The notes beneath the pieces were generated by a model. The model worked only from the letters and a program-made list of their open reading frames with translations, was not told the origin of the DNA and made no database searches. Positions 26,675-32,863 of a stretch of DNA of 64,000 nucleotides are shown here, piece after piece. Each line of letters starts with the position of its first letter. Positions within the stretch are counted from its first letter, which is position 1. The position numbers and the translations under genes were made by a program. Origin of the DNA: Rhodopirellula sp. (GTDB taxonomy: Bacteria > Planctomycetota > Planctomycetia > Pirellulales > Pirellulaceae); NCBI GenBank assembly GCA_024644085.1, contig JAHELS010000003.1:1-64000 (forward strand), written 5' to 3'.

Positions 26675-27985
26675 ATGGCACATTCTTGCGCCCTGAGAAG
26701 CCGAGTCGCGACCCTGTGCGTGATCGCATGCGTTTGGATCTCTTCCGCATCGGTCACCGCCGACGATCGGACCGTGGAATTCTCCGGGGAAACGATGGGC
26801 ACGGTTTATGTGGTCAAGATCCACGACCCGCCCGAATTCGACGTCGACGTTCGCTTCGAAGTCGATGCGGCGCTCCGCCGCGTGAACGACCAGATGTCGA
26901 CCTACCTCAAAACGTCCGAAATCGGTCGCTTCAATGACTCTGATTCGACCCAGTGGTTTGAGGTCAGTCGTGAAACCGCCGAAGTCGTCGAATTCGCCCA
27001 GGAAGTCGCCTCAAAAACCGATGGTGCTTTTGATATCACCGTCGCACCCCTGGTCAATGCATGGAGCTTCGGTGTTGCCGAGCGAACCAAGCAGGTGCCC
27101 GATCCAAAACGACTTGAAGAAATCAAAGCCTATGTCGGATACGAAAAGTTGTCGGTTCGAGTCGACCCTCCGGCGCTGCGAAAATCGCATCCAGAATTGC
27201 AGGTCGATCTCTCAGGCATCGCAAAGGGATACGGCGCCGATCGTGTGGTCGATGTGCTCAGCGAGCACGGAGCAGCGAACGTCTTCGTCGAAATTGGCGG
27301 CGAGGTCAGAACCAGTGGTTCAAAATCGGGACAGTGGTGGAAGGTCGGAATCCAGCTTCCCGATGCCGCGCGAAATACGGTCATGATCGCTCATTCACTC
27401 AGCACAGGCGGCGGAGATGATCAAGCGATGGCGACCTCAGGCGACTACCGTAATTTTTTTGAGGCAGATGGTACGCGGTACTCGCACACAATCGATCCGA
27501 GGACCGGATTGCCCGTGACGCACGATCTTGCTTCTGTCTCGGTCGTCAGCGATAGCTGTATGAAAGCTGACGCGTGGGCGACAGCGATCAATGTGCTTGG
27601 GCCCAATGCGGGGCTTGAGGCGGCGCGCCGCGAAGGCCTCCATGCATTGCTGATCCAGCGAAAGAATGACGGCGAATTCGAATTGCTCGGTACCGGCACA
27701 TTGGTGCAATACGCAACACAGGAGCGTGCGGTGCAGCCGGACCGCGCCGACGCTGCAGCCGGCGCTCCATTTGCCGTGATGGCAATCACTTTTGTCGCCT
27801 TCGCTGTTGTCCTTTTCGCGATGGCGGTGGGAGTGATGTTCGGTCGACGCTCGATCAGCGGTTCCTGCGGCGGCCTGGCAAATAGTCGAAACGAGGACGG
27901 GAGCGTCAGCTGCTCCCTATGCAGCAATCCTGCGGACGCCTGTAAGGAACTTCGACATCGTATGGAAGCGGGTACGCGAACCTAG
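26675..27985 (+). CDS. apbE: ApbE (FAD:protein FMN transferase) fused to a C-terminal NqrM (DUF539)-like module
   Basis: ApbE motifs: GETMGTVYVVKIHDP, DLSGIAKGYGADRVVDVL, GDYRNFFEADGTRYSHTIDPRTG. C-terminus: AVGVMFGRRSISGSCGGLANSRNEDGSVSCSLCSNPADACKEL, which matches the NqrM TM + Cys4 pattern. Confidence 0.9.
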   Translation: MAHSCALRSRVATLCVIACVWISSASVTADDRTVEFSGETMGTVYVVKIHDPPEFDVDVRFEVDAALRRVNDQMSTYLKTSEIGRFNDSDSTQWFEVSRETAEVVEFAQEVASKTDGAFDITVAPLVNAWSFGVAERTKQVPDPKRLEEIKAYVGYEKLSVRVDPPALRKSHPELQVDLSGIAKGYGADRVVDVLSEHGAANVFVEIGGEVRTSGSKSGQWWKVGIQLPDAARNTVMIAHSLSTGGGDDQAMATSGDYRNFFEADGTRYSHTIDPRTGLPVTHDLASVSVVSDSCMKADAWATAINVLGPNAGLEAARREGLHALLIQRKNDGEFELLGTGTLVQYATQERAVQPDRADAAAGAPFAVMAITFVAFAVVLFAMAVGVMFGRRSISGSCGGLANSRNEDGSVSCSLCSNPADACKELRHRMEAGTRT

Positions 27986-27995
27986 GAACAAGCTT

Positions 27996-29681
27996 GTGGA
28001 TTCTCAGCCGGATGACGAGGGCAAGGCACCGCCAGCTTCGGAGCCCGAAGAATCTCCGTCGTATCAAAGCGACAGGCGACCCAAATACCTTCTTTATGCA
28101 ACCGTCACTGCCGCCTTCGGCGTGATAGCCGTAGGATTGATTCAATCTGCCGCACCGGCAACCGATCACCAGATGGCGAATATCTTCAGTGTCCTCGCGG
28201 GCATGATCGCGTTCATTCTGGTCGCAATCACACTGCAACTCTGGGCGTGGCGGAGCGGCCAACCCCTGCTTGTGCCGGGTGTTCTCTTCGCCATCGCAGT
28301 GATGTTGGTGGGTGCATTTCAGTTCGACGGATTCAGCGGCGAGATGTGGCCGCAGTTCAAATTTCGTTTCGCAAGAAACGCTCCCGAATTGCGATCTGTA
28401 TCCGAAGCGTCTCGTGATTCCATCGACTCCTCCGACCCGTCGGCCGTCGCTATCGCGGATTCACTCGGTTTTCTAGGGAACGAACGAACGGGCGTGATCC
28501 ACGAGCGATTGTTCTCGATTCCCAATAGTGCGGAAGAGGTTCAAGTCCTCTGGGACCAGGGAATCGGCCAGGGATGGTCGTCATTCGCGGTCGCATCAGA
28601 TCGGGCGGTGACGCTCGAACAGCGTGACGACCAGGAATGCGTAACGTGCTACCGGCTCGCTGACGGCGAGCTCATCTGGATCGAACGCCATGAAGCGGAG
28701 CATTTCAATTCACTAGGCGGCACTGGACCCAGGAGCACGCCGACGATTCACGGCGGTCGCGTTTTCGCGCAAGGTGCAACCGGAAAACTTTGGTGCCTCG
28801 ATTTGGAAACCGGCGATACCCACTGGAGCGTTGACCTGCTTGAACTCGCTGGATGGGACCAGCTCAAATCGGAAACGGCGATAGCATGGGGTCGCGCCGG
28901 CTCGCCGCTGATCGTCGATGGCTTGTGCGTCGTTCCCTACGGTGGCCCGGATTCCATCAAGAACCAGGGGCGCAGCCTGATTGCGTTGGACGCGGAAACG
29001 GGCGAGATACGTTGGACATCGGGCGAAGACCAGATCAGCTATGCTTCCCCAGCGTTGATGACGCTCGCCGGCGTTCGGCAAATCGTCTCGGTCAATGAAA
29101 AAACAATTACCGGTCATGCGATCAACGACGGTACCGCTGTGTGGAGTTTCGATTGGCCGGGGCAAAGCAACGGCGGCGCGAATTGCGCGATGGTCATCCC
29201 CGCCGGCGAGAATCAATTCCTGATCGGAAAGGGATACGGAGGCGGCAGTGCGTTGGTGAAGATCCACGAAGACGACAGCAACGAATTGCACGCCGAAGCG
29301 GTTTGGGATTCCACGTCGGTGTTAAAGACCAAATTCACGCACGCCTGTGTCGATGGTGACGTCGCCTATGCGATTAGCAACGGCTCGCTCGAAGCAGTGA
29401 CCGTTGACAGCGGCGATCGACGATGGATCCAGCCGCGCAGCTCACGATTCGGGCAGGGCCAGATTCTGTTGGTCGCCGATACGATTGTGGCGCAGTCAGA
29501 ATCGGGCGACGTAGCGATGGTCGACGCCGACCCCACCAAATACAGCGAACGCGTTCGATTGCCCGCGCTGAGTTCCAAGACGTGGAATATACCGACCGTC
29601 GCGGGAAGGCACTTGCTCGTCCGTAACGATCGACAAGCCATCTGTTTCTTGCTGCCGCCCGTCTCCAACGCGGCAAACTAG
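27996..29681 (+). CDS. Membrane-anchored PQQ-like beta-propeller protein
   Basis: GTG start; N-terminal TM helices, then repeated propeller blades (GKLWCLDLETGDTHWSVDL, LIALDAETGEIRWTSG). Confidence 0.82.
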   Translation: MDSQPDDEGKAPPASEPEESPSYQSDRRPKYLLYATVTAAFGVIAVGLIQSAAPATDHQMANIFSVLAGMIAFILVAITLQLWAWRSGQPLLVPGVLFAIAVMLVGAFQFDGFSGEMWPQFKFRFARNAPELRSVSEASRDSIDSSDPSAVAIADSLGFLGNERTGVIHERLFSIPNSAEEVQVLWDQGIGQGWSSFAVASDRAVTLEQRDDQECVTCYRLADGELIWIERHEAEHFNSLGGTGPRSTPTIHGGRVFAQGATGKLWCLDLETGDTHWSVDLLELAGWDQLKSETAIAWGRAGSPLIVDGLCVVPYGGPDSIKNQGRSLIALDAETGEIRWTSGEDQISYASPALMTLAGVRQIVSVNEKTITGHAINDGTAVWSFDWPGQSNGGANCAMVIPAGENQFLIGKGYGGGSALVKIHEDDSNELHAEAVWDSTSVLKTKFTHACVDGDVAYAISNGSLEAVTVDSGDRRWIQPRSSRFGQGQILLVADTIVAQSESGDVAMVDADPTKYSERVRLPALSSKTWNIPTVAGRHLLVRNDRQAICFLLPPVSNAAN

Positions 29682-29812: not shown

Positions 29813-29935
29813 CAATTCGCCGGCGCCCTGAGCCCGGCGGGTTCCTGGAAGACGCACAACGGGGCAACTCCGTTGGTTCGTGTATACTCGTGTGCAACGG
29901 GCCCCTTTTCTCTCCAATCGATTCGAGGCCTTGAT

Positions 29936-30529
29936 GTGTCCGTGAATTCCGATGCCACGTCGATGAGTCTTCTGGGCCGCGCGGTCGAGGAGGACGAGCA
30001 AGCCTGGAACCAGCTTGTCCACCTTTACGGGCCGCTGGTCCAGCGGTGGTGCCGCCAGGCAGGTTTATCCGACGACGACACAGCCGATGTGTTTCAGGAA
30101 ACGTTTCAAGCGGTTGCGAGAAAGCTAGGAACGTTCAAGCCGCGACGCGATGTGGCCTCGTTTCGATGTTGGTTGAAAACGATCGTGCGGACCAAAACGA
30201 TTGATCATCATCGCAAGGCAAATCGCCAGGCCACCGGTGCGGGCGGAACGGACGCGCAGCTGCGGATTTCTGAGATCGCCGATCCTTTTTCCGAGGAGAG
30301 CGAAGAGCAAGCCGCAAGTGAGGATGCTTTCATTGTGCAGAGGGCGATGGACCTGATCGAAAAGGAATTTGATCCCAGGAATTGGTCGGCGTTCGAGCAG
30401 GTTGCCATGAAGGGACGCAGCGCCACCGATGTCGCGAAAGAACTCGGCGTTGAACCACAGACGATCCGCCAGGCCAATTACCGTATCCGCCGGCGTCTGA
30501 GACTGGTTTTGGAGGATTTGGTCGAATGA
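29936..30529 (+). CDS. ECF-type RNA polymerase sigma factor
   Basis: Region 2: LVHLYGPLVQRWCRQAGLSDDDTADVFQETFQAVARKLGTF; region 4: RSATDVAKELGVEPQTIRQANYRIRRRLR. Start uncertain; ORF track opens at 29873 with TTG, GTG at 29936 is plausible. Confidence 0.9.
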   Translation: MSVNSDATSMSLLGRAVEEDEQAWNQLVHLYGPLVQRWCRQAGLSDDDTADVFQETFQAVARKLGTFKPRRDVASFRCWLKTIVRTKTIDHHRKANRQATGAGGTDAQLRISEIADPFSEESEEQAASEDAFIVQRAMDLIEKEFDPRNWSAFEQVAMKGRSATDVAKELGVEPQTIRQANYRIRRRLRLVLEDLVE

Positions 30530-30634: not shown

Positions 30635-32863
30635 ATGACCACCGCCACGCCGACGCTCTGCCCCACGCCCGACCGATTGGCCCAGCTGGTTTCCGGCAGC
30701 CTGATCGAAGCCGAGGCAGATCGGCTGTTTGGGCACATCGATCGATGCACTTCCTGTCAGTTACAAGTCGATGAACTGGCCCGCCAGAAGGACCCCGTGT
30801 TCAAGGCCGCCGTATTCACGGCCGATGGGCGATCCAGGTCCAAGGCGACCCAGGACGAGCGGTTGTCGAGCTTGATTCAAACGGCGCAGAAATGTGTCTC
30901 CGCGGACGACACGCAAAGGCAACCGCAGTCGAAAACAAGATCAATCTCGGCGGTCGATTTCGTCAAAGGGCTGCGGCGCAGCGGATTGATCGGCGGCGAC
31001 GAATTGAGCCAGGTCCTCAACGATTTGAGCTGGGACGACAATGATCCCTCCGGTGACAGCGGCCGGCTGGCGCGGGCGCTGATACAGAACCAGAAATTAA
31101 CTCCCTTCCAGGCGAAGTTGTTGTTGCGTGGACGTTGGAAGGGATTGGTGCTGGGCAACTATGCGATTCTTGACAAGTTGGGGCAGGGCGGAATGGGCAG
31201 CGTGTTCGTTGCTCGACATACGAAGATGGGTCGAACGGTTTGTTTGAAAGTCGTCAACGCCGCAGGCCGCCAATCGCCCGAAGTCATCGACCGATTCCGA
31301 AACGAGGCACGCGCACTGGCCGCCCTCAGCCATCCAAACATTGTCGTGGCGCACGACGCGGATGAGGCAAAGGGGATTCCCTATCTCGTGATGGAATACG
31401 TGGACGGGGAAGATCTGGCCAAGCAAGTTCGAAAACAGGGAAAACTGCGTTCGGCAATCGCACTGGAAATTGGGATCCAAACCGCGCGCGCTCTCCGATA
31501 CGCCCACGCGAAGGGAGTGATCCACCGCGACATCAAGCCTCATAACATTGTCTCAAAGGTCGATCCCGCCACAGGCAAGGTCTCGGTGAAGGTTCTCGAC
31601 CTCGGACTGGCTCGATTTGACACTCTGATTACCGACAATCCCGATGCGTCCGTTTTGGCAGCGATGACCAACACCGGTGTCGTGATTGGGACCGTTGATT
31701 ACATGGCGCCGGAACAGGCGCTCGACAGCCGCAATGCCGATGCACGTTCGGACGTATACGGCCTCGGTTGTACGCTCTTCTTTCTGCTCGCCGCCCGCCC
31801 GCCGTTTTCGGGCGAAACCGTCATGCAACGATTGATCGCACATCGCGAACAAGTGGCACCTGATCTAAGCGTGCTCGTCGAGGACGTCTCGCCCGACTTG
31901 GATGCCGTCATCCACAAAATGCTGGCAAAGCATCCGTCCGATCGTTACCAAACGATGGACCAGGTGCTCGCGGATTTAGAAGCCGTATTGCGGGGACACG
32001 CCCCGAGCGTCCAGCCCACCGCGGCGAGCGAAAGTGGTCGATGGTTGGATTCGACCTCAGGCAACGCTGCAATGGTCGGTACGGAGGCATCAAGCCAAAG
32101 CCTGAGTCGAGAGTTGTCTCGCTTGAAGCCCGCCGATGACAAACGATTGCCGTTTCGACTCGGCTTGAGGCACCGCTTTGTTGCGGGCGTCGCGGCCACT
32201 GCATTGGTCATTTTCGCGGCGATCTACTTTGCACTTCCTCCGGGCGAGCGACTTGGATCCGATTCGAAAGAAACCGCCGCCCCCTTGACCCCGCCCCCGC
32301 GCGTCGGTGCCGCACAGGCCATTCGCAACGGCGGCGCGGGCCGCGCGCTGGTGTTGGTCTCATCAAAGCAATTCCGCGAGCAGGAATTCGTGGCTTTGGC
32401 ACAAGTCCTGGCTGATCATGATGTGAATCTCGTCGTCGCATCGTCCAAGTATGGAACGGGACAGGCGGAAGCCAGCATGGAATTGCGAGACACGTACCCG
32501 AATCTAAATCTCAGCGATGTCGATGCGACCGCATTTGACTCGATTTTTATTCTCGGTGGCGATAATCACGAACTGAGCCACAAGAATCCGAAGGCACAGC
32601 GACAGGTCATCCGGATCGTCGAGCAGGCTTTGCAAAACGATGTCATCGTTTCGGGATGCACCGAAGGATTTCATACAGTGCTCCGCGACACCGGATTGAT
32701 CTCGAAAAGAGAATACAACGACCAATCGTACAAGTTCGATCTGTGCAGCGCGCAGGAATTGGAAACCGAGGCAAGCCGAATATTTACCGACTTGAAAGGG
32801 CAGCCCCGACCTGCTGCAAAACCTCGCCCACTTTCTCCAAGTGAAACTTCATCTCGGCGGTGA
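30635..32863 (+). CDS. Ser/Thr protein kinase: zf-HC2-like N-terminus, kinase, TM, C-terminal DJ-1/PfpI-like domain
   Basis: HIDRCTSC zinc-finger-like motif; YAILDKLGQGGMGSVFVARH, VIHRDIKPHNIV, VLDLGLARF, DYMAPEQ; TM FVAGVAATALVIFAAIYFAL; C-terminal RALVLVSSKQFREQEFVALAQVLADHDVNLVVASS...FDSIFILGGDN...VIVSGCTEGFHTVL. Confidence 0.85.
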   Translation: MTTATPTLCPTPDRLAQLVSGSLIEAEADRLFGHIDRCTSCQLQVDELARQKDPVFKAAVFTADGRSRSKATQDERLSSLIQTAQKCVSADDTQRQPQSKTRSISAVDFVKGLRRSGLIGGDELSQVLNDLSWDDNDPSGDSGRLARALIQNQKLTPFQAKLLLRGRWKGLVLGNYAILDKLGQGGMGSVFVARHTKMGRTVCLKVVNAAGRQSPEVIDRFRNEARALAALSHPNIVVAHDADEAKGIPYLVMEYVDGEDLAKQVRKQGKLRSAIALEIGIQTARALRYAHAKGVIHRDIKPHNIVSKVDPATGKVSVKVLDLGLARFDTLITDNPDASVLAAMTNTGVVIGTVDYMAPEQALDSRNADARSDVYGLGCTLFFLLAARPPFSGETVMQRLIAHREQVAPDLSVLVEDVSPDLDAVIHKMLAKHPSDRYQTMDQVLADLEAVLRGHAPSVQPTAASESGRWLDSTSGNAAMVGTEASSQSLSRELSRLKPADDKRLPFRLGLRHRFVAGVAATALVIFAAIYFALPPGERLGSDSKETAAPLTPPPRVGAAQAIRNGGAGRALVLVSSKQFREQEFVALAQVLADHDVNLVVASSKYGTGQAEASMELRDTYPNLNLSDVDATAFDSIFILGGDNHELSHKNPKAQRQVIRIVEQALQNDVIVSGCTEGFHTVLRDTGLISKREYNDQSYKFDLCSAQELETEASRIFTDLKGQPRPAAKPRPLSPSETSSRR

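Follow-up and report, generated by a model that had tools for sequence, protein, structure and literature searches.

We identified, in the 64,000-nucleotide stretch of Rhodopirellula sp. DNA analysed here (the window), a two-gene unit consisting of an ECF sigma factor gene and a gene for a membrane-spanning Ser/Thr kinase whose C-terminal domain is homologous to DJ-1/PfpI proteins. The alignment register of this domain places threonine, not cysteine, at the nucleophile elbow; the linkage of the kinase to the ECF gene is conserved, and the two genes are either both present or both missing. The interpretation that we favour, with moderate confidence, is that of a receptor and its sigma factor, in which a DJ-1-fold pseudo-enzyme would act as the ligand- or partner-binding sensor of an anti-sigma-like kinase controlling the neighbouring ECF. 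The features on which the analysis is based are the following.

29873..30529, + strand: ECF-type sigma factor gene (Pfam Sigma70_r2, 2e-12; NCBIfam sigma70-ECF, 3e-20, over the cut-off)
30635..32863, + strand: gene for a 742-aa transmembrane Ser/Thr kinase that ends in a DJ-1/PfpI domain (ATG start)
30659..30760, + strand: N-terminal segment C9...H35-x3-C39-x2-C42, zinc-finger-like and similar to zinc-binding anti-sigma domains of the zf-HC2 type
31160..31969, + strand: kinase domain, residues 176-445 (PF00069, 165 bits), with GQGGMG loop, HRDIKPHN, DLG and APE
32177..32236, + strand: single transmembrane helix, residues about 515-534 (hydropathy), with KRLPFRLGLRHR directly before it
32318..32860, + strand: DJ-1/PfpI-like domain, residues 562-742, predicted extracytoplasmic (PF01965; profile against PDB; Foldseek)
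32384..32386, + strand: Glu584, equivalent of DJ-1 Glu18 (alignment with six PfpI proteins)
32657..32659, + strand: Cys675, one position ahead of the nucleophile elbow, at the end of the beta strand (family-level alignments, models)
32660..32662, + strand: Thr676, at the nucleophile-elbow position, which is Cys in canonical DJ-1/PfpI (family-level alignments)
32744..32746, + strand: Cys704, a position at which Cys recurs in several homologues in one alignment, its register being uncertain

The kinase domain was recovered by Pfam from the complete protein with an E value of 2.5e-48, and its catalytic motifs together with the transmembrane helix identify a Hanks-type transmembrane Ser/Thr kinase. 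DLG stands where DFG is usual; the set of motifs is complete, and the kinase is therefore predicted to be active. All the motifs listed in the earlier note on this DNA are present in the sequence, including HIDRCTSC (residues 35-42), FREQEF, ILGGDN and VSGCTEG. The Arg/Lys-rich stretch preceding the helix, read by the positive-inside rule, places the N-terminus inside and the C-terminus outside, which supports the extracytoplasmic position that the note had proposed for the sensor and that we likewise infer from the sequence.

The assignment of the C-terminal domain to DJ-1/PfpI, also proposed in that note, was borne out by both profile searches and fold prediction. PF01965 matched residues 570-693 of the whole protein with 36 bits (E 6e-9) and the isolated domain with 40 bits (E 4e-10), above the Pfam gathering cut-off of 26.6 bits. 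When a profile built from nine kinase-fused domains was compared with the PDB, 71 distinct sequences were retrieved at E < 0.01, and the best 60 of these were almost all DJ-1/PfpI family proteins; the best match reached 7e-14, followed among others by Arabidopsis DJ-1d (8e-14), YhbO (7e-13), PH1704 (4e-11) and human DJ-1, the Parkinson-disease protein (about 1e-6). The genome's own ordinary DJ-1/PfpI proteins were likewise retrieved by a profile of eight kinase-fused domains. The retrieval of these structures and proteins by the family profile rules out a chance match to PF01965.

Structural prediction yielded a flavodoxin-like fold with a strand-elbow-helix arrangement, in models of moderate to low confidence. 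The single-sequence AlphaFold2 model of the domain was weak (pLDDT 54.5, pTM 0.54), and among its highest-ranking Foldseek matches were DJ-1/PfpI proteins together with the large-catalase domain that resembles DJ-1 (E about 2e-3). A second model, for which six PfpI proteins from viral-collection contigs were aligned, had a mean pLDDT of 56.6 and an improved core with blocks at 80-83; its best Foldseek match was PfpI (1.4e-5, probability 1.0, TM about 0.5), a test whose independence is limited by the PfpI proteins in the alignment of the model. Domain positions 128-181 are unreliable in the models, whose pLDDT values are too low for reading a pocket or a dimer interface.

The domain shares with YhbO, PfpI/PH1704, SAV1875 and human DJ-1 the common fold core, the GG turn, the strand-elbow-helix and the equivalent of Glu18, and differs from them in lacking the elbow cysteine, in being fused to a membrane kinase and in its predicted extracytoplasmic location. 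Accessory domains of this type are found at the C-terminus of large catalases (HPII/KatE, Neurospora Cat-1 and Cat-3), where, however, they belong to a haem enzyme and not to a receptor. The fold is likewise used as a sensor, and not as an enzyme, in AraC-type regulators that carry a DJ-1/PfpI (GATase1-like) domain at the N-terminus, but these are cytoplasmic one-component DNA-binding proteins, unlike the membrane kinase of the window.

The elbow bears on the mode of sensing. Whereas the canonical elbow reads A-I-C-H-G, the window has S-G-C-T-E-G, so that Cys675 falls at the canonical Ile and Thr676 at the canonical Cys. This register, anchored on the invariant Gly678, was the same in comparisons with the kinase homologues, with the six PfpI proteins and with the PDB sequences aligned to the family profile. 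In both models, domain position 113-114 is the last of the strand and 116 the first of the helix, which makes position 115, that is Thr676, the turn. The cysteine that the earlier note had set at the elbow thus lies one residue too early, and the nucleophile typical of catalytic or redox DJ-1 enzymes is replaced by threonine. The register rules out the elbow cysteine as the sensor residue. Thiol, aldehyde or redox sensing through this residue, as the note had envisaged, therefore does not hold for the window protein, and non-conservation of the cysteine, which the note had named as refuting its reading, is what the clade shows: an elbow cysteine is found in 9 of the 17 fusions that we collected (G165, G104 second copy, G266, G256, G139, G101, G096, G177 and G572) and in none of the members of the window clade (G000, G029, G104 first copy, G060 and G111). 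The sister clade mostly keeps it (AICGG, AICKG, SICLG), and redox sensing is possible there. Glu584 aligns with a glutamate that is invariant in the six PfpI proteins and mostly Asp in the other kinases; it corresponds to the conserved glutamate near the nucleophile in catalytic or redox DJ-1 proteins, and its retention, unexpected in a fully degenerate site, counts against a pseudo-enzyme.

A receptor for oxidants or electrophiles, in which oxidation or adduction of a reactive DJ-1-domain cysteine switches the kinase, could still operate through Cys675 and Cys704, perhaps as a disulfide. These are exactly the two cysteines of the window domain, two are also present in L043, L044 and L045 at partly different positions, and one alignment shows a recurrent cysteine near the last strand in several homologues; both Glu584 and the mostly intact elbow of the sister clade are in keeping with such chemistry. 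Against it stand the threonine at the elbow, a clade without a single elbow cysteine, the absence of a Cys704-type position from the G029 domain, a second alignment in which Cys704 is out of register, and domain identities too low (16-22% within the clade) to speak for conserved chemistry. We consider this mechanism unlikely, and the Cys675/Cys704 disulfide only a weak rival because the register of Cys704 differs between alignments. Since the reactive position has been lost, sensing in the window protein is probably by binding and not by redox chemistry.

The 17 kinase-DJ-1 fusions were obtained from 16 genomes by searching the family, the order and the phylum of the window and inspecting the loci; inspection was confined to the top-ranking loci of each search, which makes this count a lower bound. 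Fifteen of the 16 genomes belong to the order of the window, and G572 comes from a different class within the phylum. No fusion is present in the 21 further genomes of the genus. On the kinase-domain tree, the fusion label needs at least three changes, and fusions occur in a group formed by the window with G029, G104 and G111, in another large clade, one member of which lacks the fusion, in the pair G063 and G256, and in G572, whose placement on a long branch is unsure. With the family profile, no DJ-1 C-terminus was detected on the kinase relatives from the genome-contig scan, the one weak match lying in a separate ORF of L080, and a scan of viral contigs for DJ-1 relatives was unproductive. 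The G060 copy (L044 / L164 / L250) contains an in-frame TAG, indicative of either a decayed gene or an assembly error. No described kinase-DJ-1 receptor was known to the earlier note, and our search agrees, as neither such a protein nor such a receptor is described in the searchable literature, in which the planctomycete surveys are represented in part; novelty is for this reason likely rather than shown.

Within the window clade, identity to the window protein is 54-60% for the kinase and 57-59% for the ECF, against the 16-22% of the DJ-1 domain. This very fast divergence could mean that the domain is largely vestigial or structural, serving for dimerisation or as a periplasmic anchor while specificity comes from elsewhere; a C-terminal part that is modelled with low confidence and appears shortened, and the in-frame stop of the G060 copy, would fit. 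Such a role is nevertheless improbable, given that the domain is retained in all clade members and in further kinase lineages and that PF01965 is still recognisable above the cut-off. Combined with the loss of the elbow cysteine, the fast divergence suggests binding or dimerisation over conserved chemistry.

The nearest non-kinase relatives of the sensor domain are mostly exported or lipoprotein-like, and hence the sensor was probably recruited from a protein of this type. In G101 (L152 / L172), the genes for an ECF, a kinase-DJ-1 fusion and an exported, LEPRxLL-anchored DJ-1 protein that contains calcium-binding-type repeats are consecutive on one strand (L172:5525-10766), and in L244 a similar exported protein comes after a LamG-type kinase. 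LEPRxLL-type exported DJ-1 proteins are common in the family of the window; the large ones in L136-L139, L142, L143 and L145-L151 keep an intact AICHG-type elbow in their DJ-1/PfpI domains, of which some proteins have two. In other classes of the phylum, stand-alone DJ-1 proteins carry signal peptides or lipoboxes (FRDEE, AICIAP; L204-L212, L215-L223), and in G069 (L047 / L153) a secreted protein without a kinase joins a DUF1080/LamG-like domain to a DJ-1 domain whose elbow reads AALCNG. DJ-1 proteins outside the cytoplasm thus seem widespread.

Planctomycetes possess dozens of kinases, many of them beside ECF genes. In the window, the ECF stop lies 105 bp before the kinase start, the ECF gene itself probably starting slightly after the TTG at 29873; the matches to Sigma70_r2 and sigma70-ECF confirm the upstream sigma factor reported in the earlier note. 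That note had also called for a search for the fusion and its ECF linkage across Planctomycetota. An ECF gene adjoins the fusion at 12 of the 16 loci in the order, a count that leaves out G572, and is upstream and co-oriented in 11 of them and convergent in one. Homologous ECF genes adjoin homologous kinases, and the distance matrices of the two across 11 pairs are strongly correlated (r = 0.90, Mantel P = 0.0002), although this value partly reflects two separate clades; the correlation with the DJ-1 domain is weaker, at 0.49 for the ECF and 0.48 for the kinase. The linkage is not specific to DJ-1, because many planctomycete kinases adjoin ECF genes. Kinase-linked planctomycete groups listed in PMC8999054 include ECF59, ECF61, ECF62 and ECF217, which the window resembles in the adjacency of an ECF and a Ser/Thr kinase, although its ECF could not be placed in any numbered group; no DJ-1 sensor is mentioned for these groups in the searchable texts.

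The surroundings of the locus show that the pair behaves as a unit. Just upstream, at 26675-29681, an ApbE-type flavin transferase is followed by a PQQ-repeat protein, an arrangement that is syntenic in at least three congeners. In G005, G006 and G009, the order ApbE, PQQ-repeat protein, Gfo/Idh oxidoreductase and mfd is the same without the ECF-kinase pair, and the PQQ and Gfo/Idh stops are separated by 47, 117 and 426 bp, respectively, against 3186 bp in the window, where the interval is filled by exactly the two genes; the ECF and the kinase therefore come or go together. The nearest ECF genes elsewhere in the genus show only 35-41% identity, whereas those from other genera of the family reach 57-59%, so that the pair has been acquired or lost as one. 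A binning artefact was ruled out by the neighbouring genes, as mfd shares 74-83% identity with its congeneric counterparts, where the full or nearly full length was matched, and Gfo/Idh 78-79%; the contig belongs to the genome.

Fingers of the zf-HC2 type are typical of zinc-binding anti-sigma domains. The H-x3-C-x2-C signature, with Cys or His upstream, is found in 14 of the 17 fusions, and 4 of the 8 N-termini tested, all four from homologues, passed the zf-HC2 cut-off; the window copy has the motif and no profile match. From these motifs we infer a putative anti-sigma role for the N-terminus of the kinase; PMC7406223 deals with class I anti-sigma domains.

The mode of control can be compared with that of ECF43, where the ECF partner of a kinase has lost the acidic motif of region 2.2 and is activated by phosphorylation (PMC13147305, PMC8103513). 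To this group belong the PknT-EcfP pair of Vibrio parahaemolyticus and the PknS-EcfK pair of Xanthomonas citri, in which a transmembrane Hanks-type kinase likewise stands beside an ECF and has been shown to control it. In the window, by contrast, the kinase bears an anti-sigma-like finger and a DJ-1 sensor, and the ECF keeps D-T-A-D instead of an uncharged replacement of the DAED-type motif, which rules against ECF43-style activation. Phosphorylation of region 2.2 to supply a missing negative charge is thus unlikely despite the adjacency of the two genes, the threonine within D-T-A-D and the published precedents, since the outer acidic residues are retained in 12 of 12 linked ECFs and phosphorylation is not needed there.

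The mechanism that we propose is the following. The receptor would be a membrane-spanning Hanks-type kinase with a cytoplasmic zinc-binding anti-sigma-like finger and an extracytoplasmic C-terminal DJ-1/PfpI fold, which in the window clade kept the fold, lost the nucleophile-elbow cysteine and would thus be a pseudo-enzyme. This domain would most likely have a small metabolite or a protein as its binding partner, or else shift its dimer state, with dimer-based activation as the possible outcome; the change would be passed through the membrane to the kinase, which might then, itself or by way of its finger, release or activate the neighbouring ECF sigma factor. The fused finger suggests a way for the kinase to hold and release its sigma factor.

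At the level of the phylum, we tentatively suggest, as a possibility somewhat short of even, an undescribed Planctomycetota receptor family, made up of anti-sigma finger, kinase, transmembrane helix and exported DJ-1 domain and inherited with its ECF as a two-gene unit, in which the clade with the nucleophile may sense extracytoplasmic electrophiles or oxidants and the window clade may be a non-catalytic binder. If true, this would be the first DJ-1 protein to serve a receptor kinase as its external sensor, and it would place DJ-1-type domains outside the cytoplasm, where they have been little studied. An enzyme-derived sensor with and without the catalytic cysteine in sister lineages would provide a natural comparison between the reactive and the binding modes of DJ-1.
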